From: Oscillospiraceae bacterium
GTDB lineage: Bacteria; Bacillota; Clostridia; Oscillospirales; Ruminococcaceae
NCBI GenBank assembly: GCA_017848115.1
Contig: JAGAKZ010000008.1
Location: 1-35,507 of the forward strand
Direction of reading: 5' to 3'
DNA length: 35,507 nt
Shown here: positions 761 to 20,820 of the stretch, one piece after another
Numbering within the stretch: the stretch's first letter is position 1
Layout of the letters: the number at the start of each line of letters is the position of its first letter
Made by a program: the position numbers and the translations under genes
The notes under the pieces: model-generated
Told to the model about the DNA's origin: nothing
The model's database searches: none
The model's input: only the letters and a program-made list of their open reading frames with translations

Positions 761-3700
761 TTACTTCACTTCATCAAGATAAAGCTTAACTTTATTTTGA
801 ATACTTGCAGCAGTTTCGGCTGAAGTTGCTTCATCTTTGAAGAACAATTCAGCTTCTTCTTTGATAATATCCATAATAGAAACATCAAAATTACTATCAC
901 CTGTAACGGATTCAAGAATGCTCTTTACCTTTTCTACAGATTCATCGCTGATAACACCGATCTGTACCATTTCATTACCTACAGGGTAATTTGAATACAG
1001 ATTATTATTTGTATCCTGTGATTTCTTAACCATTTCATCTATAGTTGAAAGCTTAATCGGGAAACCGCCACCGAGAAAATCAGATTCTATAACGTAGTTC
1101 TGGTAATCGTCAAGGAGATATTCTCTTACAAATTTCCATGCTTCATCTTTGTTTTCAGATTTTTCAGAGATAGCGAAACTCTCACCATATCTTACTGTGA
1201 TACCGCTTCCCTTACCTGATGGCATACCCTTGAGTGTAACTTCTTCCTTGAACTTTGCAGATTCAAGAATATTAAATTCAGAAAATCCTGATATTGATGT
1301 AAATTCGAGAGCACACTCATCATTCCAGAAACGTTTTTCATAGTTGTTGTATGCATCTTCGTTTTCATCATCAAAAAGATCTACTTCTTCTTCAACACCG
1401 ATTTCTTTTATAAGTTCAAGTATAGTAATAAAATCTTCGTTGTCAAAATCGCACTTTGATTCTTTGAAATCAACATAGTCAGACATTGCTATACCTGCCA
1501 TAGCAGTAAGTAAATCTTCTCTGGGCACGTTTTCTACAACATTTCCGTCAAATGAATCAACAAATTCTTTGAACTCTGCAACAGTCCAATTACTTTCTTC
1601 ACCAACGATTGATGTTTTACCTAAAAGACCATCAAGTGTAAATGAAGGTATGATCTGACAAAGCTTTCCGTCATACGAACCTATCTCAAAAATGTTCTGG
1701 AGATAATCTTCTTTCTTGATATCAGCATCTTTTTCAATAAATGTATTGAGATCTGCAAACATTCCCTTCTTTGCATAAATATCCATATTTAGATTTGTAT
1801 TTGCAAGAACGATATCAGGAATATTTCCAGACACTATATCATTGTTGAACTGTTTTATACCCTTATTTTCATCATCTGCTGTATTGTGCTTTGCATAGTC
1901 ATAAACCTGTATTCTTGATGTATCGCTCGATTTGTTGAATTTTGTGATCTGAGTCGCTATATCATCACCTATTTCAAAACCGGCAGCAGTTATTACCTTC
2001 TTATTATTTATCTGTTCAAGCTTTGCTTCATCAGCTTTTGTGAGTATCAGAAGTGAAGGTTCAGAATCATAGTTCTTATAGTCATTTCCTATACAAGCAA
2101 TAGTATTTTCATCTATTATTGCAAGATTGCTGAATGATTCAGAAAAATCAGATTCAATCCAGTTGACGATTTCTTTTACCTTCTTGCTTTCAAAGTTATA
2201 ACCATAAAGTGAGATACCGTCATCAATGTATATACTGTTTTCACCTACACCGGAATAAACATTTGTCAAGCCTGTAAGATTTATTCCATCAATAACAATT
2301 GCTTCACCAAATTTTCCGTCTTCGGCATTTATCTTAGCAAAAACTGGTTTATCATCATTTGCACTGTCATAATATCTTGCATATATATCACCCTCGGCAG
2401 ATGTGATGATCTCTCTTATTTCATCAACAGCCTCATCAGTATTCTTTGCCTTAACATTTCCATCTTTATCAACAATGAAAAGACATGAACCGTTTTCAAA
2501 TGAATCATCTGTCACATGAAAATATACATTTCCTGATTTATCAACATTGATAAAATTTGAATAAGTCATTTCTGTTCCTACAAAATCCGGAACTTTATTG
2601 GAACTTATCTTATTGCCATCGGGATCAACAAGATTTATATACAATTCTACAGTTGCAAATGTTTCTTCAGAGTTAGTTGCAGCGTCCATCATATCATAAT
2701 TATATGCCATTTCCAGATAACATATATTACCTTCAGGTGTTATGCAGCAATCATTGACCTGACTCTCTGTTGCACCTTCAGCAAAGTTTTTGAGCGACAT
2801 ACTCTTTTCAACTGTACCATCTGCATTAAGAATCTGCAAAGTATAAAAACTTGTATCAGTTGACATAGCGTATAACATTATATCTTCACCATCAGCAATA
2901 ATGTCAAAATTTTGCGACTTTAATGCTGATGGAGTATCACTGGATAAACGATTGTAAATAACTTCAGAACTGCTGTCTTTAAGATTGTAAGAATATATTG
3001 CATCTGAATCGCTATATATAATGTGTTCTGCATCACTGCCTATATACGCTTTATGAGTGTCAGCAATCTCATAACGTCCTAATATTTCACCGGTTGAAAC
3101 GTCAACTTCATTTATATAACAACATGTTGATGTTTCATCAAGACCGCACATAATAAGATTACCATTATGGTTCATAAACATATTTGTAAGACTGCTTATT
3201 TCTCCGACATCGATCTCCATAACAACATCAAAGTTCTTATCAAGCTTATTCACCTTAAGGTCCTTATAAGTAAGATTTCCTGTCTGCATTGCTGATATAT
3301 CGATGTTATAACTTATTGTATATAAGAAACCTTTATCATCAGACAGCAACAATTCACACTGTCCGAATCCTGAAATTCCTACCTTCTTTGTGATTTCTTC
3401 TCTTTTTATTTCTTTACCTGATGGATCATATACGCCGATTTCTGCTTTTATAGCCATTCCGACAGATTTAAGAATGAGAACATACAGATTACCTTCATCA
3501 TCTATGGTCATACCATAAGGCATTTCCATAATATTATCGCATATCTGTATCTCCGTTTCACACTTTTTACTTTCAGAATCATGTACATAAACAAACGTTC
3601 CTGTTTTCTCATCGAGGTTAGCTGTGATTATCTTTCCCTTAACACTCTGTGCTATATATGGAATTCCTTTTTTGCTGAGATCAAACTTTTCTACACTCTT

Positions 3701-4009
3701 GTTCTTGGCGTCAAGACTATAAAATTCTACTGCTCCCGCTTCAGAAAAAGATACACCATATGAGTACATTTTTCCATTTACAGCCTGCAAAGAAATAAGA
3801 TTGCTTACTCCCTCAGGCATACCCTTATCTTCAGAAGTATAGTAATTAACTATCTTCTTAGTTTTACCTGCATCTACAGAAGAAGAGGCACTGTTTTTCC
3901 CGCTCTCGTTTTTCTTGTTACATCCCGTTACCATTGTTGCCGTTCCGATGATCATAGCTGTTGCAATAACCATGGAAAGTACTTTCTTTAGCATTCTTAG
4001 TTTTTTCAT
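761..4009 (-). CDS. Giant extracellular solute-binding lipoprotein with N-terminal propeller-like region
   Basis: This 1082-residue protein begins with a lipoprotein signal peptide: MKKLRMLKKV, a hydrophobic stretch, then VTGC with the lipidated Cys at residue 30. Residues about 50-660 contain many short repeats of the type 'DxxGNxYx' (DDEGNLYVLI, DKSGNVYFHV, SAEGDIYARY), which suggests a beta-propeller or other repeated beta-sheet sensor domain. From about residue 670 the sequence is a family-1 type periplasmic-binding domain: FNNDIVSGNIPDIVLANTN, FADLNTFIEKD and, near the end, EAWKFVREYLL. Ordinary sugar-binding lipoproteins are about 420-450 residues, so this is roughly two and a half times the usual size. 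No permease or ATPase genes adjoin it, so it may act as a surface sensor or partner of a transporter encoded elsewhere. It lies 58 bp after an SDR gene on the same strand and probably shares that transcript. The start has an AAAGGA site upstream. Confidence 0.8.
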   Translation of the reverse strand: MKKLRMLKKVLSMVIATAMIIGTATMVTGCNKKNESGKNSASSSVDAGKTKKIVNYYTSEDKGMPEGVSNLISLQAVNGKMYSYGVSFSEAGAVEFYSLDAKNKSVEKFDLSKKGIPYIAQSVKGKIITANLDEKTGTFVYVHDSESKKCETEIQICDNIMEMPYGMTIDDEGNLYVLILKSVGMAIKAEIGVYDPSGKEIKREEITKKVGISGFGQCELLLSDDKGFLYTISYNIDISAMQTGNLTYKDLKVNKLDKNFDVVMEIDVGEISSLTNMFMNHNGNLIMCGLDETSTCCYINEVDVSTGEILGRYEIADTHKAYIGSDAEHIIYSDSDAIYSYNLKDSSSEVIYNRLSSDTPSALKSQNFDIIADGEDIMLYAMSTDTSFYTLQILNADGTVEKSMSLKNFAEGATESQVNDCCITPEGNICYLEMAYNYDMMDAATNSEETFATVELYINLVDPDGNKISSNKVPDFVGTEMTYSNFINVDKSGNVYFHVTDDSFENGSCLFIVDKDGNVKAKNTDEAVDEIREIITSAEGDIYARYYDSANDDKPVFAKINAEDGKFGEAIVIDGINLTGLTNVYSGVGENSIYIDDGISLYGYNFESKKVKEIVNWIESDFSESFSNLAIIDENTIACIGNDYKNYDSEPSLLILTKADEAKLEQINNKKVITAAGFEIGDDIATQITKFNKSSDTSRIQVYDYAKHNTADDENKGIKQFNNDIVSGNIPDIVLANTNLNMDIYAKKGMFADLNTFIEKDADIKKEDYLQNIFEIGSYDGKLCQIIPSFTLDGLLGKTSIVGEESNWTVAEFKEFVDSFDGNVVENVPREDLLTAMAGIAMSDYVDFKESKCDFDNEDFITILELIKEIGVEEEVDLFDDENEDAYNNYEKRFWNDECALEFTSISGFSEFNILESAKFKEEVTLKGMPSGKGSGITVRYGESFAISEKSENKDEAWKFVREYLLDDYQNYVIESDFLGGGFPIKLSTIDEMVKKSQDTNNNLYSNYPVGNEMVQIGVISDESVEKVKSILESVTGDSNFDVSIMDIIKEEAELFFKDEATSAETAASIQNKVKLYLDEVK

Positions 4010-10043: not shown

Positions 10044-11447
10044 CTACTCATTTATAATTCCTGCCGCTATACAATTTTCTCTGTGTTGTTCAACTGTTTC
10101 AGCATAATATACTATCTTTTCTTTAGTTCTTGTATCAGCACAGAAGAATAAATAGTTTGTCTGGGCAGGGTAAAGAACTGCTTTTATAGCCTCCAGACCC
10201 GGGTTACAAATCGCTCCCGGCGGATACCACTTTGTTTCATAAGTATCATAAGCACGTACCATATCTTTGGACATTCCCTTACTTTCAAGCCATACGGCAT
10301 ACTCACTGGTAGGATCTGACTCAAAGCCTCTGAAATCATATGGTCTCTCCATTCGATTATGGAAAACAGATGAAACGTTGTACATATCAGCATTATCAGC
10401 CGCTTCTTTCTGTATTATGGAAGCCATTATAATAACTTCATCCATAGTCATTCCCATCTCTTTGGCTCTTGCCTGTAATTCTTCGTTATACTTTATTTCA
10501 AAGTTATCGTATATCTTTCGTAAGATAATTTCATACTCAGATTCTTCCATCGTAGTAATATCTATAGCCTGATAAAATTCATATGTATCAGGGAAAAGGT
10601 AGCCTTCCATTCTGTGATATCTCAGACTGTGCGCTGTAGACTTCGGAACATCATTTATAAAATTATAGTCACTAAGGCCATTATTAAAATAATATATAAA
10701 CTTTTCAGCAAGACATACACCATTGTCCTCAAGCATTTTTGCCACATCATCAAGAGTTGTACCTTCAACAATCGTTATTGTTACAGTCTGACGTTCTATA
10801 TATTCTACACTTGTAAGTTCATCAAGAATATCCGTATAACCCATATTAGGACTGAGCGCATGATCGCCGGCAACAAATTCTACTGTCTCTCCGCCACGTT
10901 CTTTAAACTTAACAAGCAGCTCAAACAAAGGCTTTACTCTGATAATAGGCTCACGGCCTCTGTCTTCCTGATTTGTAGTCATTATCTCCATTACCTGCTT
11001 TACATCAGCATTTTCAGGAATCTTTAAGGTGTAGTTTGAAGCACTTTTATCTATCCCGAAAAATTCTTTTGCAAGAAAAATTATAGAAATAGATGCTATT
11101 ACCGATATTCCGACAATTATTGACGTAAAAATCAAACTAAAAGCTATTCTATTTCCTTTTTTTGGCTTGATATACTTTACCTTTACTCTTCTGGTTACCC
11201 GATCATTATTTGTTTTTTCAGATTTTATTTCTCTCTTTCTTTTACGAACACGCTCATAAACCTCTTCACTTATCTCAGGAGCATCATCTTCAAGACTGAG
11301 ATCACCATCTGAACGGTATGTACTCTCATAACTATCGGCTAAATTACTGTTTTCAGGTTTATTTATTATTTCATCAAGCATTTCATCTATCATATCTTCA
11401 TCATAATTGTCCGATAAATTTTCGCCTTTTAAAGTTTTATTATCCAT
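10044..11447 (-). CDS. mltG: Endolytic transglycosylase MltG
   Basis: This 467-residue protein has an acidic, Lys/Arg-rich cytoplasmic N-terminus of about 100 residues, one membrane segment near residues 103-127 (AFSLIFTSIIVGISVIASIS), and an outer LysM-like plus YceG domain. The catalytic Glu is in IMASIIQKEAAD, and the family motifs SDPTSEYAV and WYPPGAICNPG follow. MltG cuts nascent glycan strands and sets their length at the growing cell wall. The cytoplasmic N-terminal region is longer than in E. coli, as is common in Firmicutes. The ATG overlaps the end of the 5-formyl-THF cyclo-ligase gene by 8 bp, which suggests coupled translation. Confidence 0.93.
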   Translation of the reverse strand: MDNKTLKGENLSDNYDEDMIDEMLDEIINKPENSNLADSYESTYRSDGDLSLEDDAPEISEEVYERVRKRKREIKSEKTNNDRVTRRVKVKYIKPKKGNRIAFSLIFTSIIVGISVIASISIIFLAKEFFGIDKSASNYTLKIPENADVKQVMEIMTTNQEDRGREPIIRVKPLFELLVKFKERGGETVEFVAGDHALSPNMGYTDILDELTSVEYIERQTVTITIVEGTTLDDVAKMLEDNGVCLAEKFIYYFNNGLSDYNFINDVPKSTAHSLRYHRMEGYLFPDTYEFYQAIDITTMEESEYEIILRKIYDNFEIKYNEELQARAKEMGMTMDEVIIMASIIQKEAADNADMYNVSSVFHNRMERPYDFRGFESDPTSEYAVWLESKGMSKDMVRAYDTYETKWYPPGAICNPGLEAIKAVLYPAQTNYLFFCADTRTKEKIVYYAETVEQHRENCIAAGIINE

Positions 11448-14479: not shown

Positions 14480-14902
14480 TTATGATTTCATTTTCCAGCC
14501 TACTATATTTATATAGATATCACTACTGCCTCTGTCTACAGTATCTTCGATATAAAAATCATGAACACAACCGATTTTATTACCGAAACTGTCATTTATA
14601 TCAGAAGTAGTATGACTGGACTTCAGCTTAAACACATCATCTACTGTTATAGTAAGTACAGGTAAATCACAACAATTATGCTTGTTTGTATCCTGCGATA
14701 ACAACTGCATCTGTGTGTCATAATCAAGCTTTTTAGCATTAAAATAAATCTTATCTCCTGCACTTAGTGTGACGTTTACCTTTCTTGAACACTCAGTTAT
14801 AACGTCCCACACCAACGTACACCCCTGCTGTACTCCGTCAAGCACAAACTGTAAAGTTGATGACAACTCCAGTCCCCCCTTATCTCCCTGTTTTTTTCTC
14901 AT
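14480..14902 (-). CDS. Unrecognised 140-residue protein, predicted Agr/LytTR target
   Basis: I do not recognise a family. The protein has 140 residues and no signal peptide or membrane segment. It begins MRKKQGDKGGLELSS and is then rich in beta-strand-like stretches (TLVWDVITECSRKVNVTLSA, VLTITVDDVFKL, IYINIVGWKMK), which suggests a small beta-sandwich. Cysteines are at 28, 38, 77, 78 and 112. A Gly-Gly at residues 9-10 resembles a double-glycine processing site, but the leader would be unusually short. The ATG has an AAGGAG site. Upstream (14959-15026) lies a promoter with paired LytTR repeats, almost identical to that of the lectin gene, so it is very likely switched on by the Agr-like system. 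By analogy a secreted effector is possible, but no export signal is seen. Confidence 0.75.
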   Translation of the reverse strand: MRKKQGDKGGLELSSTLQFVLDGVQQGCTLVWDVITECSRKVNVTLSAGDKIYFNAKKLDYDTQMQLLSQDTNKHNCCDLPVLTITVDDVFKLKSSHTTSDINDSFGNKIGCVHDFYIEDTVDRGSSDIYINIVGWKMKS

Positions 14903-14958
14903 ATCTCCTTATGTGATGACTGACTACTTTCATTTTCCTCTTTCTTCTCCTTGTTTAT

Positions 14959-15026
14959 ATATTAACTCATTTAAAAGAACAAATCAATACTTTTGCGTGA
15001 GATGTTCAGTTTTCGGCGTGAAATGC
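14959..15026 (-). promoter_or_regulatory. LytTR-type regulated promoter of the 140-residue protein gene
   Basis: Two direct repeats, GCGTGAGATG at 14995 and GCGTGAAATG at 15016 (plus-strand reading), are 21 bp apart, i.e. two helical turns. On the minus strand they are followed after 7 bp by TTGATT (-35, 14982-14987), 17 bp and TAATAT (-10, 14959-14964). The block 14967-15026 matches 16272-16331 with one mismatch. Paired repeats at this spacing next to the -35 box are how AgrA-type LytTR regulators bind. Confidence 0.75.
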
Positions 15027-15089
15027 CTATCATTCTCCGAATTCATAATATAAACTTACATTTACTTATGTTTTTATACAATCGTATAT

Positions 15090-15605
15090 AATCGAGTAGG
15101 AGGCTACCCATTAGTTGAGTAGCCGACCTCTCACACCACCGTGCGTACCGTTCGGTACACGGCAGTTCAATAGTTTAAGTGCAGTACCTTGTATCTCTCG
15201 TGTATGTTATCATATCCGATTGATGCAAGGTATTCGTTTGTTAATGACGTAGTTAGTAACTGACTAAGTGAAATTCTCCAGTAACTTTTCCTACTATTAG
15301 CCCATTTCCAAGCTGTATAGCTGTCTATTCCAAGCTTCACAAGATTATCGTGTTTTGTCTTGATTTTCTTCTATTGTTTCCAGAAGATTTGACGTATTCT
15401 TCGCCTTATCCACTCGTTCAGAGCTTTAATCTTATTTTCCATGTCTGCAATGATTTACTGTATCGAAATACTTTGCCAGGTCTAAATCTACTACTTGCGT
15501 ATAGCCTTCTTCGTAGTATTTCAATGCTTGCTTCATCGCCTGTTGCGCACTTCTATTGGGTCTGAAGCCATGCTACTTTCTGTGACTGCCCATTCAGGGC
15601 AAACC
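15090..15605 (-). mobile_element. Decayed 3' end of a bacterial group II intron
   Basis: On the minus strand the segment has, in order, a broken intron-encoded reverse transcriptase, a domain-V-like hairpin (about 15128-15169: GCCGTGTACCG, an AACG turn, then GTACGCACGGTGG) and a domain-VI-like hairpin with a GGCTAC/GTAGCC stem (15102-15107 and 15119-15124). The sequence GGTGGTGTGAGAGG next to domain V is characteristic of these introns. No 5' intron end or domains I-IV are visible, so it is a truncated, immobile relic. It lies between the two predicted Agr target genes, and its 3' end is about 65 bp from the regulated promoter at 14959-15026. Confidence 0.8.
15167..15601 (-). pseudogene. Group II intron reverse transcriptase/maturase remnant (ltrA-like)
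   Basis: In fragments on the minus strand one reads GFRPNRSAQQAMKQALKYY, then EEGYTQVVDLDLAKYFDTVN, the RT-3/RT-4 motifs of intron-encoded reverse transcriptases. The sequence then jumps to the C-terminal maturase part: KALNEWIRRRIRQIFWKQ, a TAG in place of Trp, KKIKTKHDNLVKLG, YTAWKWANSRKSYW and SLTNEYLASIGYDNIHERYK, ending in TGA at 15167. The YADD active-site region is deleted. One base is missing just before GFRP (a TESSH-type reading is out of frame). With an internal deletion, a frameshift and a nonsense codon, it cannot be active. Confidence 0.85.
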
Positions 15606-15610
15606 AAAAT

Positions 15611-15648
15611 AAAACAGTCGGCATTTCCAAGCAACACCGACTGTTTTT
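15611..15648. terminator. Terminator of the lectin gene
   Basis: An 11-bp stem, AAAACAGTCGG (15611-15621) and CCGACTGTTTT (15637-15647), lies about 60 bp beyond the stop of the 15709-16068 gene, with a T-rich tail on either strand. Confidence 0.8.
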
Positions 15649-15708
15649 TCATATTTTCATATCTAAATAATCTACTCAAAAAACTGAAAATATTCAAGAT
15701 TTATAAAA

Positions 15709-16068
15709 TTATTTTTTATTAAATTTAAATCTACATTTGCAAACACTCATATTTGCCCATGTTTCTTTAGGGGTAACCCATTCGCCTGTCCATTCACCGC
15801 CATATGACGCACACACAACCGGACATTTCTTTTCAGCATCTTCCTGATTCCATATCGGACCTGCGATTACATCAAGTTCTAAAGACATATCGCCATCTTT
15901 TTCAGTCTCAAACTCGCAACCACAAACACTCATAACGTTTGGAACTACTGTTTTCCACTGACCATTCCATGTACCAAGATGTGCGGCACATACTATTGGA
16001 CATTTTTCTTCTGCATCTTCCTGATTCCATATTGGACCTACTGGGATATCAACTGTAAATTTAGCCAT
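15709..16068 (-). CDS. MVL-like mannan-binding lectin with eight cysteines, predicted Agr/LytTR target
   Basis: This 119-residue protein is two tandem repeats, about residues 10-53 and 69-114, offset by 59. Each has GPIWNQEDAE, then a C-P-x-V-C-A segment, G-x-W-x-G-x-W-x-T and M-S-V-C-x-C-x-F. Length, repeat number and the motifs GP(I/L)W, (T/N)G(Q/E)W and MSV match the MVL family named after the oligomannose-binding lectin of Microcystis viridis (113 residues, two repeats, as I recall it). Unlike that protein it has cysteines at 23, 27, 49, 51 and at 82, 86, 110, 112, in the same places in both repeats, suggesting disulfides or a metal site. No signal peptide is present. ATG follows an AAGAGG site; the leader RNA is about 190 nt. 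The promoter carries paired LytTR repeats shared with agrBD. The fold call is strong; mannan binding is inferred. Confidence 0.85.
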   Translation of the reverse strand: MAKFTVDIPVGPIWNQEDAEEKCPIVCAAHLGTWNGQWKTVVPNVMSVCGCEFETEKDGDMSLELDVIAGPIWNQEDAEKKCPVVCASYGGEWTGEWVTPKETWANMSVCKCRFKFNKK

Positions 16069-16263
16069 TTTAAATTCCTCTTTTCTTAATAATTAATAAT
16101 ACAAATATTCTTTTACAATTGCGTTATTTTTCTCATATCTACATTTTAGCACCCCACCCCTCAATATAACCACATATTTTTCTTTATGCAATTATAATTA
16201 ATCACAAATTTGAAAATACACATAATATTTGTTGAAAATTCATATGCGTTTTCTATGTTTTAT

Positions 16264-16331
16264 ATAATACATCATTTAAAAAAACAAATCAATACTTTTG
16301 CGTGAGATGTTCAGTTTTCGGCGTGAAATGC
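16264..16331 (-). promoter_or_regulatory. LytTR-type regulated promoter of the MVL-like lectin gene
   Basis: Direct repeats GCGTGAGATG (16300) and GCGTGAAATG (16321), 21 bp apart, are followed on the minus strand after 7 bp by TTGATT (16287-16292), 17 bp and TATTAT (16264-16269). The site also lies about 80-110 bp upstream of the divergent response-regulator promoter, so binding here could influence both directions. Confidence 0.75.
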
Positions 16332-16408
16332 ATTGTGTAAAACTTCTCTATTTTTGTGTATGCATATATATATCATGCACTATTTTAATTGTAATTTTAT
16401 ACATTCTA

Positions 16409-16437
16409 TTGACATTTATAAAAATATATTTTATATT
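16409..16437 (+). promoter_or_regulatory. Promoter of the response regulator / sensor kinase genes
   Basis: TTGACA (16409-16414), a 17-bp AT-rich spacer and TATATT (16432-16437) form a near-consensus promoter. No LytTR repeats overlap it, so the two-component genes are probably made constitutively. Confidence 0.7.
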
Positions 16438-16474
16438 TATATTATGGATTTGACACGATTGGAGGTGGATTTTG

Positions 16475-17176
16475 GTGAAAATAGCTGTATGCGATGATGA
16501 AAAAATATTTTCTGACATGATTTGCGGACTTATCAATAAAACTGTAAAAGATATTTCAGCATGTGATATATCGGTGTTCAACAGTGGCGAAGCTTTACTT
16601 TTGGCTTATGCTGAAAATGACTTTGATATTATATTTCTCGATATTGAAATGAGCGGTATAAATGGTATGGAAACTGCAAAAGAAATACGTAAAAAAAATG
16701 ACCATACTATTATTGTTTTCTTTACAAGTCATCAGGAATTTGCAATAGAAGGCTATGAAGTAAATGCGTTTCGTTTTCTTGTTAAAAACCAGCCTGAATT
16801 TATCTATGAAAAGCAGTTCAGATCAATTATGGACGAATATTCGCTAAAACATAAGACATTTGAAGTACCTACAAAAAACAAGACAATATTTTTTCCTCTT
16901 AACGATATTGTATACTTTGAAGTTATAGACAAAAAAATAATAATTCATTCAAAAGACTCTGAAATAGAATACTGCGGTAAACTTTCAGATGCAGAAAAAG
17001 AACTTCAGAACGATAATTTTACAAAGGCACATAAGAGTTTTCTCATCAATATATCATGGATAGATACTATAAATAAACTTGATGTATCGATGAAAAACAA
17101 TGATACTGTTCCGCTGAGCAGAAAATATAAAAAAGACGTCGTAGAAAACTACATCTCATACATGACTGGACGGTGA
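16475..17176 (+). CDS. AgrA-like response regulator (REC + LytTR)
   Basis: The protein has 233 residues from GTG at 16475 (MKIAVCDDEK, the usual start of this family), with GGAGG 9 nt upstream; a TTG one codon earlier is less likely. The receiver domain (residues 1-118) has the acidic pair Asp7-Asp8, phospho-acceptor Asp56 in IIFLDIEMSGING, Thr/Ser in FFTSHQEFA and Lys104 in FRFLVK. A LytTR DNA-binding domain (about 133-230) follows, with NDIVYFEVIDKKIIIHS and FTKAHKSFLINISWID. LytTR proteins bind paired direct repeats about 21 bp apart, exactly what is found at three promoters in this locus. The sensor kinase gene starts 6 bp downstream. No other LytTR gene is seen in the window, so it is the natural regulator of those sites. 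Confidence 0.92.
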   Translation: MKIAVCDDEKIFSDMICGLINKTVKDISACDISVFNSGEALLLAYAENDFDIIFLDIEMSGINGMETAKEIRKKNDHTIIVFFTSHQEFAIEGYEVNAFRFLVKNQPEFIYEKQFRSIMDEYSLKHKTFEVPTKNKTIFFPLNDIVYFEVIDKKIIIHSKDSEIEYCGKLSDAEKELQNDNFTKAHKSFLINISWIDTINKLDVSMKNNDTVPLSRKYKKDVVENYISYMTGR

Positions 17177-17182
17177 TTTTTT

Positions 17183-18466
17183 ATGAGTACTCCTCTTTGG
17201 TATTCTATTGAAGCAATAAATATCATTGCTGAAGCATTTATAATCTACATATACTTCAGTAAACTTCTCCCTGATAAATATACAAGCAGACGACCGTATG
17301 TCGGTACATATGGTTTACTATGCGGCTGGCTTTTTGCAGGTGTTACAATAAATATAAACTCTACTGTAAGCCTGATTGGAACTCTTGTGTTCATATATCT
17401 CATATCACTTCTTCTTTATGAAGGTTCTGCAAGTAAAAAAGCTTTTTTTAGCATACTGATCATGTTTATAATTATTGTTTCTGAAATGATATTTATAGGC
17501 TCTATGACTGTACTGAAACTGACAACACCTGAAGAACTTTCTTTAAGAGGTCCTGCACGAATTTCCGGAATGGTTGGTGTAAAAATTCTTTATTTCTGGA
17601 TCATTGTACTTGTCTGCAGAATTATTAATAAAAAAATACGTGAAATACCTTCAAAACATTGGATAATTATTATTTCCATGCCTGTTGTAAGTATTCTTGT
17701 TCTGTATACACTTGCTATCTCTTATATAAATCTTAACGGTCAGATGATAACTACGCTGTTTCTTCTGGCAATTGCAGGGCTTTCATTTATAAATATTGCA
17801 TTTTTCGACTTTTTTGAAAACTATAATAAACAATTGCGTATCTCTATTCTTGAACAAGTTGTTGAACATGAAAATACAAACTACAAACAACTTGAAAATG
17901 CATACTCTGAGATGCGAAAGCTAAAGCATGATGTAAGTAATCAGGTAACGATAATAAACGATCTGATTGCCAGAAACGAAAAAGACTCTGCGTCAGAAGT
18001 TATCCACAATCTATCTGAACGTCTTGACGAAATCAATTACATATGTTACACAGGCGAACCTATAATAGACTCTATTATAAATATAAAGCTTAAATCAGCA
18101 CATGATATGGGCATAAAGGTAAGCAAAAACATAGCTGTAAACAAATTTTCACTTGACTGTTTTGAATTATGTCGTGCCCTCGGAAATGCACTTGATAATT
18201 CCATAGAAGCATGTCAGCGATATGAAAACGACGAAAAATATATACATATGAGTATGCAGCAGATTGAAGACAAAATCGCTATAGAAATCTCAAATTCTTC
18301 AGATGTTGTAGATCCGAAAAATCTGCAGACAAAAAAGAAAAATAAAGCCGCTCATAATATAGGTATGAGCAGTATAAAAACATCTGTAAAAAAACTTGGC
18401 GGTTATATAAGTTATGATTTTAAAGACAATATATTTTACCTTAAAATAGTTGTTTTAAACAAATAA
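17183..18466 (+). CDS. AgrC-like GHKL sensor histidine kinase
   Basis: This 427-residue protein has six or seven membrane segments in the first 210 residues (for example 62-79, 88-106, 132-148, 160-181 and 189-209), a coiled-coil linker, and a GHKL kinase region. The phospho-acceptor is His249 in MRKLKHDVSNQ, the N-box is in ALGNALDNSIEAC (Asn335/Asn339), and the G-box in HNIGMSSIKTSVKKLGG. This is the architecture of AgrC-type receptors for cyclic peptides (HATPase_c_5 group). It directly follows the response regulator and precedes agrBD, so its ligand is most likely the processed peptide from 19246-19422. Confidence 0.9.
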   Translation: MSTPLWYSIEAINIIAEAFIIYIYFSKLLPDKYTSRRPYVGTYGLLCGWLFAGVTININSTVSLIGTLVFIYLISLLLYEGSASKKAFFSILIMFIIIVSEMIFIGSMTVLKLTTPEELSLRGPARISGMVGVKILYFWIIVLVCRIINKKIREIPSKHWIIIISMPVVSILVLYTLAISYINLNGQMITTLFLLAIAGLSFINIAFFDFFENYNKQLRISILEQVVEHENTNYKQLENAYSEMRKLKHDVSNQVTIINDLIARNEKDSASEVIHNLSERLDEINYICYTGEPIIDSIINIKLKSAHDMGIKVSKNIAVNKFSLDCFELCRALGNALDNSIEACQRYENDEKYIHMSMQQIEDKIAIEISNSSDVVDPKNLQTKKKNKAAHNIGMSSIKTSVKKLGGYISYDFKDNIFYLKIVVLNK

Positions 18467-18490
18467 TGCATATTTTTTCGTCATAAAAAT

Positions 18491-18559
18491 GCATTTCACG
18501 CAGTTTCAGATACATCTTGCGAAAAAGTATTGAAAATCCATATAAAGAAACGATATACT
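18491..18559 (+). promoter_or_regulatory. LytTR-type regulated promoter of agrBD (autoinduction)
   Basis: The repeats read on the plus strand are CATTTCACGC (18492) and CATCTTGCGA (18513), 21 bp apart. Seven bp later comes TTGAAA (-35, 18530-18535), an 18-bp spacer and TATACT (-10, 18554-18559), 28 bp before agrB. The order, repeat spacing, 7-bp gap and the AAGTATTGA sequence are the same as at the two target promoters, read in the direction of transcription. The second repeat departs most from the others, which could tune the response. Confidence 0.75.
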
Positions 18560-18586
18560 TAGATTAAGGGATTTAAGGGTAAAGTT

Positions 18587-19165
18587 ATGATAGAAAAAAT
18601 TTCAGAATACATATCAGATATTTTTGTGAAGCATTCGATAATAAATCAAGAGGACAGAACTGTTTATTCCTATGGTATGGAAATTTTAATATCTGTTCTT
18701 GTAAACATTTTAGTAATAGTAGTAATTGCATTTATTACTGAGATGTTTATTGAAATATTCCTCTTTACATCATCCTTTATATTTATAAGACGATATATTG
18801 GTGGTTATCATGCAGACACTCATCGTAAATGTATCTGTTTATTTGCAGTTGTACTCATATTTTTTTCTATAGTGATAAAACACATACCAGTTATCGCTTG
18901 TACAACAGTTTTGGCTTTATCTTTTATTTTTTCATTTATATTTGTATCATTACTTGCCCCGGTTGAACATAAAAACAAACCTTTAAATAACAAATTAAGA
19001 TCAAAACTACACAAACAAGGCATTCTGCATTTGACTCTTGTATGTATATCTTCTTTGTTACTCTTTGTTTATGGTTTCAAAGTATATTCGTTGTCATTAT
19101 CATTTGGTTCTATGGTTTCAGTTACTTCTATGATTGTCGGTCACTTAGTAAACAAGTTTTCATGA
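18587..19165 (+). CDS. agrB: AgrB-like cyclic peptide processing protease
   Basis: This 192-residue integral membrane protein has about six hydrophobic segments. The AgrB active-site region is clear: RRYIGGYHADTHRKCICLF, with His75 and Cys82 seven residues apart, as for His77/Cys84 in S. aureus AgrB. The N-terminus (EKISEYISDIFVKHSIINQEDRTVYSYGM) also matches the family. AgrB cuts the C-terminal tail from AgrD and closes the thiolactone ring at the membrane. AAGGG lies before the ATG. It is followed after 80 bp by the AgrD gene and preceded by the autoinduction promoter. Confidence 0.92.
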   Translation: MIEKISEYISDIFVKHSIINQEDRTVYSYGMEILISVLVNILVIVVIAFITEMFIEIFLFTSSFIFIRRYIGGYHADTHRKCICLFAVVLIFFSIVIKHIPVIACTTVLALSFIFSFIFVSLLAPVEHKNKPLNNKLRSKLHKQGILHLTLVCISSLLLFVYGFKVYSLSLSFGSMVSVTSMIVGHLVNKFS

Positions 19166-19245
19166 TTATTTTGTTTTAAAATTAAGATGACTTTCAAAAT
19201 ACTACTTTATAATTTATAAACTGAGCTTGAAAGGAGCTTTTTAAA

Positions 19246-19422
19246 ATGAATAAAATCTGCAATACTTTCAAAAAAATATCTATACGTTTTATGAATCAAC
19301 TTGCTTCCCTGGCACTATTTATAGGAATTATCGAAAATACCAAGGCTTGTATATGGCTCTTCCATCAACCTCAGACTCCTGATGGACTTGAAAAATTTAT
19401 GAAAGAAAAAGAAAATTTATAA
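19246..19422 (+). CDS. agrD: AgrD-like cyclic lactone autoinducer pro-peptide
   Basis: A short gene of 58 codons follows agrB, with AAGGAG 9 nt before the ATG. The layout is that of AgrD: an amphipathic N-terminal helix (FKKISIRFMNQLASLALFIG, residues 8-27), a core with a single candidate ring cysteine (NTKACIWLF, Cys35) and a charged, proline-containing tail (HQPQTPDGLEKFMKEKENL). By analogy with staphylococcal and clostridial peptides, the ring would be the five residues Cys35-Phe39 (C-I-W-L-F) with a short exocyclic tail from NTKA. The exact N-terminal cut cannot be predicted. A second cysteine at residue 5 lies in the leader. The gene is followed closely by a strong terminator. Confidence 0.88.
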   Translation: MNKICNTFKKISIRFMNQLASLALFIGIIENTKACIWLFHQPQTPDGLEKFMKEKENL

Positions 19423-19441
19423 AAGGAAAATATGAGAGATT

Positions 19442-19491
19442 AAAACAAATACCGATGACATTTTTTAAGAGATGTCATCGGTATTTGTTTT
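19442..19491. terminator. Bidirectional terminator between agrD and the lysozyme gene
   Basis: A perfect 19-bp stem (AAAACAAATACCGATGACA at 19442-19460 and its complement at 19473-19491) with a 12-nt loop ends both the agrBD transcript and the converging GH25 gene. Confidence 0.92.
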
Positions 19492-20743
19492 AATTTATAA
19501 TTTGTTTTTTTACTCTCTGATAGTCAAATACGTTCACTTGTCCATCGCCGTTTATATCAGCCTTTACCCCGTTTTCTTCATCACAAAGAACATAAGTACC
19601 AAGCTTTTTAATATCATTTACTGTAAGTACTCCGTCATCATCCACGTCATGACGTATAACAGTAATATCACTTTCTTTATCCAGTTTTACGATATCTTCA
19701 CTTTTACACCAACCTATAAGCCCATTATACTTTATCCTGTTCCATACTACTCCATTGATTTCTTTTTGTTCTTTTACTTCAACTACAGTTCTGCTGTCTA
19801 TTTCCATTATATTAGCAAAATCACTTCCTGCTCCGCATCGGAAATTCAGTTTGTTTCCTGATTTTAAAAGTGCGATTTCGTCTAAAAGCTCTTTTTTGTC
19901 CTCTATAGGTTCAGGGTATATTGTATATGCTATATTTAAATCAACGACTGCCGGAATACCTTTTTTTGTTCCTATGCTGGAATACTGCCATATATCACAG
20001 TATTCTGAATAATCATATTTTAAAGGGTCTATCTGTAAAGTAAGTGACGGATATACAGCCATCCACACTTCATATCCGGACTTTTCTATCATGGCTCTGT
20101 CAAGATGATTCAAGTACCAGTACTTACCTGTATAAACACCTGTTTTGTATCCCGCATCACTGATAATATTCATAGCGGCAAGTGTATAAGCAGTGAGTTT
20201 TTCTTTACCAAGAGCAAGCTGTTCCGAATATTCTATATCTATATACACAGGCATCTCAAATTCTTTACCATCGAGATATCCTAGAAAATCATATGCGGCT
20301 TTTTTAAATCCTTCAAGTGTCACCGCACTGCAATACAGATAAGCACCTTTTTTTATACCTGTTGACTTTACTCCTGCATAATTTTTTTCAAAATTTTTAT
20401 CAATGCCATACCATGATGTACCCGCTCTCATAATAACAAAATCTATGTTGTTTTCTTCAAGTGCAAGTTCACTCCAGTTTATATCCCCCTGATATACCGA
20501 AATATCTATGCCGTATTCTTTAGGCGGAGTTTCTTCTTCAGGTATCTCAGGAATTTCTTCAACTGTGGTATCATCTCCTGCGGTAATATCTTCACTTTTA
20601 TCCTCGGTAACATCAACTACTTCATTTTCAACCGTTACTTCCGGCATCTGAATTTCTTGTGCACATACAGAAGAAAAAAATGTTGTACTCAAAAACGAAA
20701 ATGAAACCACAAATGAAATCATCTTCCTTAATATTTTCCTCAT
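19490..20743 (-). CDS. Secreted GH25 lysozyme with SH3 and dockerin modules
   Basis: The protein has 417 residues from ATG at 20743; an upstream in-frame GTG lies inside the GGGAGG ribosome site and is rejected. A signal peptide (residues 1 to about 28, ending SVCAQE) is followed by an acidic Thr/Glu/Pro linker and a GH25 domain at about 78-275. This has GIDISVYQGDINW with the first catalytic Asp and PVYIDIEY with the Asp-x-Glu pair (169, 171). An SH3-type module follows at about 294-356 (LNFRCGAGSDF, NGLIGWC). The C-terminus (366-417) has two calcium-loop repeats, DVDDDGVLTVNDIKKL and DINGDGQVNVFDYQRVKK, i.e. a type I-like dockerin. GH25 enzymes cut the MurNAc-GlcNAc bond of peptidoglycan. 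A dockerin implies docking to a cohesin on a scaffoldin or cell surface. Confidence 0.9.
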   Translation of the reverse strand: MRKILRKMISFVVSFSFLSTTFFSSVCAQEIQMPEVTVENEVVDVTEDKSEDITAGDDTTVEEIPEIPEEETPPKEYGIDISVYQGDINWSELALEENNIDFVIMRAGTSWYGIDKNFEKNYAGVKSTGIKKGAYLYCSAVTLEGFKKAAYDFLGYLDGKEFEMPVYIDIEYSEQLALGKEKLTAYTLAAMNIISDAGYKTGVYTGKYWYLNHLDRAMIEKSGYEVWMAVYPSLTLQIDPLKYDYSEYCDIWQYSSIGTKKGIPAVVDLNIAYTIYPEPIEDKKELLDEIALLKSGNKLNFRCGAGSDFANIMEIDSRTVVEVKEQKEINGVVWNRIKYNGLIGWCKSEDIVKLDKESDITVIRHDVDDDGVLTVNDIKKLGTYVLCDEENGVKADINGDGQVNVFDYQRVKKQIIN

Positions 20744-20820
20744 AAAATAACCTCCCACTTAAAAGTATACAGCTATTTTACTATATTTCGACACAAAAGT
20801 AAAGCTTTTTTGTAAAAAAA

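Follow-up and report, generated by a model that had tools for sequence, protein, structure and literature searches.

An Agr-type pheromone circuit in a Ruminococcus-type bacterium, with a probable small regulon whose effector genes appear to be exchanged at a shared operator-promoter

The DNA considered in this study (the window) comprises the first 35,507 nucleotides of contig JAGAKZ010000008.1, from the draft genome of an Oscillospiraceae bacterium (GCA_017848115.1; 3.34 Mb in 108 contigs, 81% complete; G000 below). Near its middle lie the genes of an Agr-type quorum-sensing circuit: a LytTR response regulator, a GHKL sensor kinase, AgrB, and a 58-residue AgrD. Beside them, on the opposite strand, are a gene for a lectin of the Microcystis viridis lectin (MVL) type and one for a 140-residue protein of no recognized family. 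All of these parts had been reported in a first-pass annotation made from the letters of the sequence, and all were found at or near the places it gave them. Their positions, together with those of promoters, repeats, and terminators, are collected in Table 1.

Table 1. Features of the Agr-type locus, in window coordinates.
Feature	Positions	Strand	Evidence or remark
140-residue protein	14480..14902	-	No family over cut-off; 99% identical in sister genome G010
Direct repeat, 73 bp, downstream copy bounding the lectin cassette	14954..15026	-	Single copy in G010
Operator module of the 140-residue protein gene (copy B), then TTGATT-17-TAATAT	14984..15025	-	Exact copy
Remnant of the 3' end of a group II intron, within the lectin cassette	15091..15167	-	Rfam RF00029 40.3 bits (gathering score 40)
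Terminator 3' of the lectin gene	15611..15647	-	
MVL-type mannan-binding lectin, 119 residues, two repeats	15709..16068	-	Pfam MVL 86.9 bits; PDB 1zhq, E 2.2e-27
Direct repeat, 73 bp, upstream copy bounding the lectin cassette	16259..16331	-	95% identical to the other copy
Operator module of the lectin gene (copy A), then TTGATT-17-TATTAT	16289..16330	-	Exact copy
Likely regulator-kinase promoter, TTGACA-17-TATATT, without module	16409..16437	+	11/12 consensus matches, best of 28 sites
LytTR response regulator, AgrA-like, receiver and LytTR domains, 234 residues	16472..17176	+	Pfam LytTR 79.6 bits, Response_reg 64.8 bits
GHKL sensor kinase, AgrC-like, 427 residues	17183..18466	+	Pfam HATPase_c_5 68.9 bits; N-terminal half divergent in part from G010
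Operator module of agrBD, then TTGAAA-18-TATACT	18492..18533	+	3 departures from the target copies
AgrB peptidase/exporter, 192 residues	18587..19165	+	Pfam AgrB 131.5 bits (cut-off 23)
AgrD pheromone precursor, 58 residues	19246..19422	+	TIGR04223 32.7 bits (cut-off 19)
Terminator 3' of agrD	19443..19490	+	

The profile scores identify both the AgrB peptidase and the AgrD precursor of an Agr-type system (the Pfam scan gave no match for AgrD), and the kinase and regulator that such a system requires adjoin agrBD. The regulator matches Staphylococcus aureus AgrA and ComE structures in sequence. The pair nonetheless stands outside the subfamily defined by the NCBIfam equivalogs, since its scores fall far under the cut-offs for AgrA (51.8 against 400 bits) and for staphylococcal AgrC (26.2 against 500 bits). 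Judged by eye, the ring of the pheromone would be Cys-Ile-Trp-Leu-Phe. A ring of Cys and four residues is suggested by a Cys-x4-(H/Y)Q pattern in the AgrD-like frames of relatives and by the confirmed AgrD-type pentapeptide of Clostridium thermocellum, which is closed by a lactone (PMC5322536). The likely promoter of the regulator and kinase was picked from a scan whose 28 near-consensus sites are no more than are found in shuffled sequence (29.7); having no operator module, it would fit a receptor that is made constantly and a signal that is induced. Convergent with agrD lies a gene (19490-20758) whose product resembles GH25 lysozymes, has a dockerin domain, and matches SH3 weakly; no operator module stands in front of this gene.

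The first-pass annotation had described three promoters in the window as carrying one and the same module, and these are real: two exact copies, in front of the lectin and 140-residue protein genes, and a variant copy in front of agrB. The module consists of two 10-bp repeats separated by 11 bp, followed after 7 bases by a -35 element beginning TTGA and, 17 bp further on (18 bp at agrB), by a -10 element. All three departures of the agrB copy fall in its second repeat, and its own two repeats are only 6/10 alike. When the spacer may vary from 9 to 13, the paired pattern finds two matches in the window and none in 100 shuffles of it. In all eight sites (of five kinds) in G000 and in the sister genome G010, the -35 element begins 7 bases past the second repeat, a distance left free in the search, whose pattern did fix the spacer at 11 bases. 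A pair of direct repeats at a distance of about 21 bp, placed shortly before a -35 element, constitutes a direct-repeat operator of the LytTR kind. The module has the geometry of published LytTR pheromone operators, as had been supposed, being equal to the 10-11-10 arrangement of Sil and close to the 9-12-9 of Pln; in the SilA sites, 11 bp separate one 10-bp direct repeat from the other (PMC2766830). The circuit reading is well supported from the sequence, and so is the placing of the lectin and 140-residue protein genes behind the same operator as agrBD.

Of the proteins encoded by the two target genes, the lectin contains the tandem MVL repeats of PF12151 (two stretches, with a cut-off of 25 bits), and each repeat has CPxVC and CxC cysteines that are absent from the aligned positions of the Microcystis lectin. 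The family was seen in only one of 149 genomes, the lectin's own, and likewise in one of 391 genomes of the class, and a query with the lectin found nothing useful in plasmids or viral contigs. The 140-residue protein occurs in two of the 149 genomes (G000 and G010), with nothing convincing in Pfam, NCBIfam, or PDB. Its structure, predicted from one sequence, has a mean predicted local distance difference test (pLDDT) score of 41.9, and for this reason no fold is claimed. In neither protein was a signal peptide found by eye.

The whole of the assembled G000 was searched for the module with two differently written patterns, both with the spacer fixed at 11 bases. With up to three mismatches allowed, the module occurs at four places and the reversed control at none. 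Within this 81% complete assembly, therefore, the repeats are not scattered over unrelated promoters, an outcome that had been named in advance as one that would tell against a dedicated regulon; further operators may be missing from an assembly of that completeness. The fourth copy is on a separate contig (C103), and for this reason, and because a sister promoter precedes a bacteriocin-type operon (below), the "two-gene regulon" of the first-pass annotation was incomplete.

The search of related genomes that had been suggested covered 149 genomes, G000 included. At zero mismatches it yields eight sites, four in G000 and four in G010, and none elsewhere. With up to two mismatches there are 23 matches in 14 genomes. 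The 15 that lie outside G000 and G010 (at one or two mismatches) are set aside as background, for the reversed control gives 20 matches in the same genomes, two of them in G010. Thirteen of these have two mismatches; of the two with one mismatch, in G143 and G070, that in G143 was inspected and has no agr gene in the 6 kb listed around it. Viral contigs gave no match to the operator pattern. Earlier work has given counts of agr genes in rumen genomes (PMC10838665). AgrB-like proteins are found in 19 of the 149 genomes, and only in G000 and G010 do circuit and operator occur together. The AgrB proteins of these two share 74% amino acid identity, while the other 28 AgrB-like matches reach at most 36%; an AgrB query against the genome contigs collection found no relatives.

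The operator on C103 is followed by -35 and -10 elements and by a predicted transcript of about 230 bases that ends in a terminator-like hairpin. The list of open reading frames has no frame of at least 50 residues within the transcript, nor is there one beyond about 16 codons by eye. Past the hairpin lies a gene for a 330-residue protein with a lipoprotein-like start, into which the transcript may read through. The short transcript at the fourth operator (L009, 7327-7600; L036, 11780-12035) matches both ends of the 140-residue protein unit, the 3' part scoring 69.4 bits where the best of 200 shuffles scored 27.0. A regulator RNA resembling RNAIII was considered, as the C103 transcript folds better than its shuffles (z -4.11), but that folding includes the strong terminator hairpin, and the candidate was rejected on this ground and on that of the matching ends. 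Probably, then, the transcript is a shortened copy of a unit of the 140-residue type, which its sequence makes likelier than a regulator RNA; it may still have a role as a small RNA.

To place this operator among those of other Agr circuits, I examined the upstream regions of 29 of the 30 AgrB-like loci, leaving out the agrB region of G010 as a near-duplicate and keeping that of the window. A repeat of at least 9/10 bases appears at a spacing of 21 bp in 12 of the 29 regions, as compared to counts of 0 to 3 for any other spacing in the range 12-44. The agrB region of the window does not belong to these 12. Each circuit differs from the others in its repeat sequence, and the operators of three other circuits, searched with up to three mismatches, proved to be confined. 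That of a second Agr circuit in G000, on contig C36, has one exact site, at its own agrD, and a three-mismatch match in G010 inside an AgrB-like gene (G008 could not be fairly judged here, since the pattern had a spacing of 22 and the repeat pair of G008 has one of 21). Those of G050 and G054 have one exact site each, at their own agrB, and the search of four genomes gave three further three-mismatch matches, against four in the control. With four sites in each of two genomes, the circuit of the window is the expanded case among those tested. The presence on C36 of a second circuit with a LytTR-type regulator of its own raises the question whether some regulator other than the neighboring one reads the operators of the window. 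I regard this as very improbable: the operator stands at the agrB of this very circuit, the C36 repeat is different and occurs only at its own agr genes, and circuit and operator are found together only in G000 and G010.

Comparison with the sister genome bears on how the regulon may have come by its members. G010 is a metagenome bin of Ruminococcus sp. isolate SIG549, 92% complete, and the stretch used here is identical over 16,702 bases to contig SVNW01000033.1 of that organism. Aligned with it, the lectin gene, its terminator, and the group II intron remnant form a 1305-base insert in the window, lying between the two 73-bp promoter copies. The intron remnant is borderline, since it passes the gathering score by 0.3 bits and does not appear in the whole-window gathering scan, and its protein frames belong to no useful family. 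At the fourth site the roles are reversed: it is G010 that has about 7.8 kb between two promoter copies, of 126 bp, and G000 that has the single copy. Within the repeats, at both loci, the single copy resembles the upstream copy on its left side and the downstream copy on its right, a mosaic to be expected if one crossover made or resolved the duplication. The informative bases are one upstream-like and three downstream-like at the lectin site (where the single copy of G010 also has one base of its own), and one and a handful at the fourth. Gain and loss of the cassettes are indistinguishable from these data.

Two other origins for this arrangement have to be weighed. The promoter shared by the lectin and 140-residue protein genes might be a by-product of duplication, with no selected role in control of the lectin. 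The two promoters are indeed 95% identical over the 73 bp that bound the cassette, and the intron remnant speaks of a history of mobile DNA. It is improbable, however, given that the repeats and the -35 and -10 elements are intact in both copies and that the same arrangement recurs at a second locus with other cargo. The second possibility is that cassettes flanked by promoters arose when drafts of mixed strains were assembled, repeats of 73 and 126 bp being what might mislead an assembler. At 126 bases, the longer repeats could well cause difficulty in assembly from short reads. Yet in both genomes the cargo runs without a break into its flanks, long stretches match on either side, and usual short reads are longer than a 73-bp repeat, so that an artefact, too, is quite improbable.

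Effector cassettes thus appear, from the two alignments, to be swapped in and out at a shared operator-promoter. It is possible, and I offer it tentatively, that the regulon uses the operator-promoter itself as its site of exchange. By recombination, cassettes bearing their own copy would integrate at resident copies and be excised from them, captured genes of whatever kind, for a bacteriocin or a lectin, would at once come under quorum control, and the block that determines signal specificity would be exchanged separately.

That block differs sharply between the two genomes. The regulators are identical in all 234 residues, whereas agrB shows 80.8% DNA identity, the AgrD core is CIWLF in the window and CFLFF in G010, and the kinase is divided, its latter part being 96.6% identical in DNA and a 150-base stretch of its sensor part 80.0%. 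Nine of ten flanking stretches, on both sides, lie at 97.9-100%. Such sharp divergence is thus seen outside agr as well: a gene at 10044-11447 forms a second divergent block nearby, with 80.0% DNA identity among neighbors of about 99%. In staphylococci, agr specificity groups combine a constant regulator with a divergent signal block. The constant regulator found here beside a variable AgrB, AgrD core, and sensor end, in one genome pair, looks like the same thing.

The cargo of G010 bears on what the regulon may be for. The proteins encoded in its roughly 7.8 kb comprise an ABC ATPase, one of 196 residues, one of 133 residues whose start is signal-like, one of 904 residues, a membrane protein resembling DUF1430, and a second 133-residue product that has no family. 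The ATPase and the DUF1430-like protein point to a bacteriocin cluster of the lactococcin 972 (Lcn972)/mediterrocin type, but their best matches remain under the curated cut-offs, both for DUF1430 (20.5 of 28.2 bits) and for the ABC ATPase of the Lcn972 type (212.9 of 254.85 bits). The 133-residue candidate bacteriocin has no match in NCBIfam or Pfam, and so is not recognizable as a structural protein of the mediterrocin/Lcn972 kind, and it has no likeness to the mediterrocin-family protein of C36 (E 6.1). Relatives of the DUF1430-type protein of G010 occur in 6 of 149 genomes; those in G000 are only 25-29% identical, and the G010 operon was accordingly not found in the assembled G000.

Two other circuits show the association more directly. 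On C36 of G000 (L097, 964-10693), agrD and agrB run directly into an operon that encodes a protein of the mediterrocin family (NF052268, 81.2 bits against a cut-off of 40), one of DUF1430 (29.2 against 28.2 bits), and an ATPase closest to the Lcn972 type, whose 217.8 bits fall short of the cut-off of 254.85. The repeat pair of this circuit is a separate one, spaced 22. In G008 (contig C276; L101, 220-4700), a repeat pair with -35 and -10 elements precedes an AgrD (31.9 bits, cut-off 19) and an operon whose products are a mediterrocin-family protein scoring 87.2 bits (cut-off 40), a protein resembling DUF1430 (23.9 of 28.2 bits), and an ATPase again nearest the Lcn972 type (231.9 of 254.85 bits). 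Large proteins of 904-1082 residues with lipoprotein-like starts are encoded in the window (761-4009), in L097 (964-3858), and in L036 (14942-17656). Two of the three exceed cut-offs of solute-binding families (that of L036 exceeds none), and two of the three lie in bacteriocin-type operons.

The sister's Lcn972/mediterrocin-type operon behind the same operator, and the C36 circuit that runs into a mediterrocin-family operon, are the grounds for supposing that the regulon of the window most likely serves competition. A different purpose can be imagined for a circuit that is real and does control its promoters: the lectin might serve adhesion or aggregation on mannan- or chitin-like surfaces, with the 140-residue protein as its partner. 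The nearest solved relative is named a mannan-binding lectin (1zhq), and the GH25 protein with its dockerin domain adjoins the locus. The lectin, however, is the variable part. Being a cassette missing from the sister, it is not the core of the system, as G010 keeps the circuit and the 140-residue protein gene without it and has a bacteriocin-type operon behind the same operator. I consider an adhesive regulon unlikely.

Taken together, the results make it likely that the locus is a pheromone circuit of the Agr type governing a small regulon of its own, most likely devoted to competition, whose cassettes are exchanged at the operator-promoter. AgrB would cut, cyclize, and release the AgrD peptide, which the kinase would sense and so activate the LytTR regulator. 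The activated regulator would bind the two repeats just upstream of the -35 element and switch on agrBD, as feedback, along with the lectin, the 140-residue protein, and the short C103 transcript. Homologous recombination between one copy of the operator-promoter and another would bring effector cassettes in or take them out. Of the initial interpretation there remain the Agr-type circuit and the pheromone-type operator at agrBD, the lectin gene, and the 140-residue protein gene; the limit to two target genes has gone.

Several observations weigh against this interpretation. The circuit is carried by two genomes only, both of them drafts (81% and 92% complete), so that operators may be missing from either. 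The fourth operator drives no clear protein, and with no signal peptide evident by eye in the lectin or the 140-residue protein, their release is unexplained. Few bases underlie the recombinant appearance of the single promoters, and the direct repeats, above all the 126-bp pair, could have been misjoined in the drafts. Nor is the agr block alone in diverging from the sister. The candidate bacteriocin of G010 matches no family, and the DUF1430 and Lcn972-ABC matches beside it are below curated cut-offs. Finally, at least one of the 12 repeat pairs in the survey of upstream regions, that of L079, is situated within a frame resembling agrD and probably arose by chance.

A Ruminococcus-type bacterium gains from this work a pheromone regulon that can be tested, with a short and definable list of targets, and Agr signaling is joined to mediterrocin-type bacteriocin operons within one genus. 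The two natural pairs, with and without cargo, illustrate how a single step could recruit genes to a quorum regulon. Should the lectin be an effector, sugar-binding proteins would join bacteriocins as competition factors under pheromone control; if the operator-promoter is indeed an exchange site, MVL-type lectins would be a new kind of pheromone-controlled effector. In a literature collection without preprints and most subscription papers, none of the papers listed mentions, in its title or the opening of its abstract, pheromone control of an MVL lectin or exchange of promoter-bounded cassettes, and no paper there joins the exact terms Ruminococcus, agr quorum sensing, and AgrD.

Among known systems, the Blp (pneumocin) locus of the pneumococcus is a pheromone-driven effector region that varies from strain to strain, within one region, and is not of the Agr type. 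Both it and the present circuit combine a pheromone with variable effectors, but here the variation is at two loci on different contigs. The competition proposed for the window would be like that served by Blp, Pln, and Sil. The lectin belongs to the same family as MVL (1zhq) over nearly its whole length, and differs from it in the cysteines of each repeat and in having a pheromone-type operator in front. The clusters of mediterrocin and lactococcin 972 described in PMC12345188 contain a small secreted protein with a signal peptide, a DUF1430 protein, and an ABC ATPase, which is the make-up of the C36 operon and, less surely, of the G010 cassette. Here, however, Agr genes or operators stand directly in front; the main text of that paper mentions an unspecified transcription regulator and does not contain the terms quorum, agr, LytTR, autoinducer, or response regulator.

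Further likenesses in operator and in circuit come from three systems. Sil of Streptococcus has a LytTR regulator, 10-11-10 repeats, and few genomic sites, a genome search for further ones having found targets of the bacteriocin type; it is also variable in its presence among strains and has truncated mobile elements nearby (PMC2766830). It differs in using the SilCR peptide and an ABC transporter instead of AgrB and AgrD, and no lectin is named in the portion available. Pln of Lactobacillus plantarum has tandem 9-12-9 repeats directly upstream of the -35 element and several operons under one kind of operator, but a paired activator and repressor as regulators and bacteriocin, transport, and regulatory operons as targets (PMC2714321). 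The Agr system of Clostridium acetobutylicum shares AgrB, AgrD, kinase, and LytTR regulator, with agrBD and agrCA apparently in separate operons; its effector resembles a lanthipeptide synthetase and its effects are on granulose and sporulation (PMC10301443), whereas the circuit described here has a few private operators and cargo that appears to be exchangeable.

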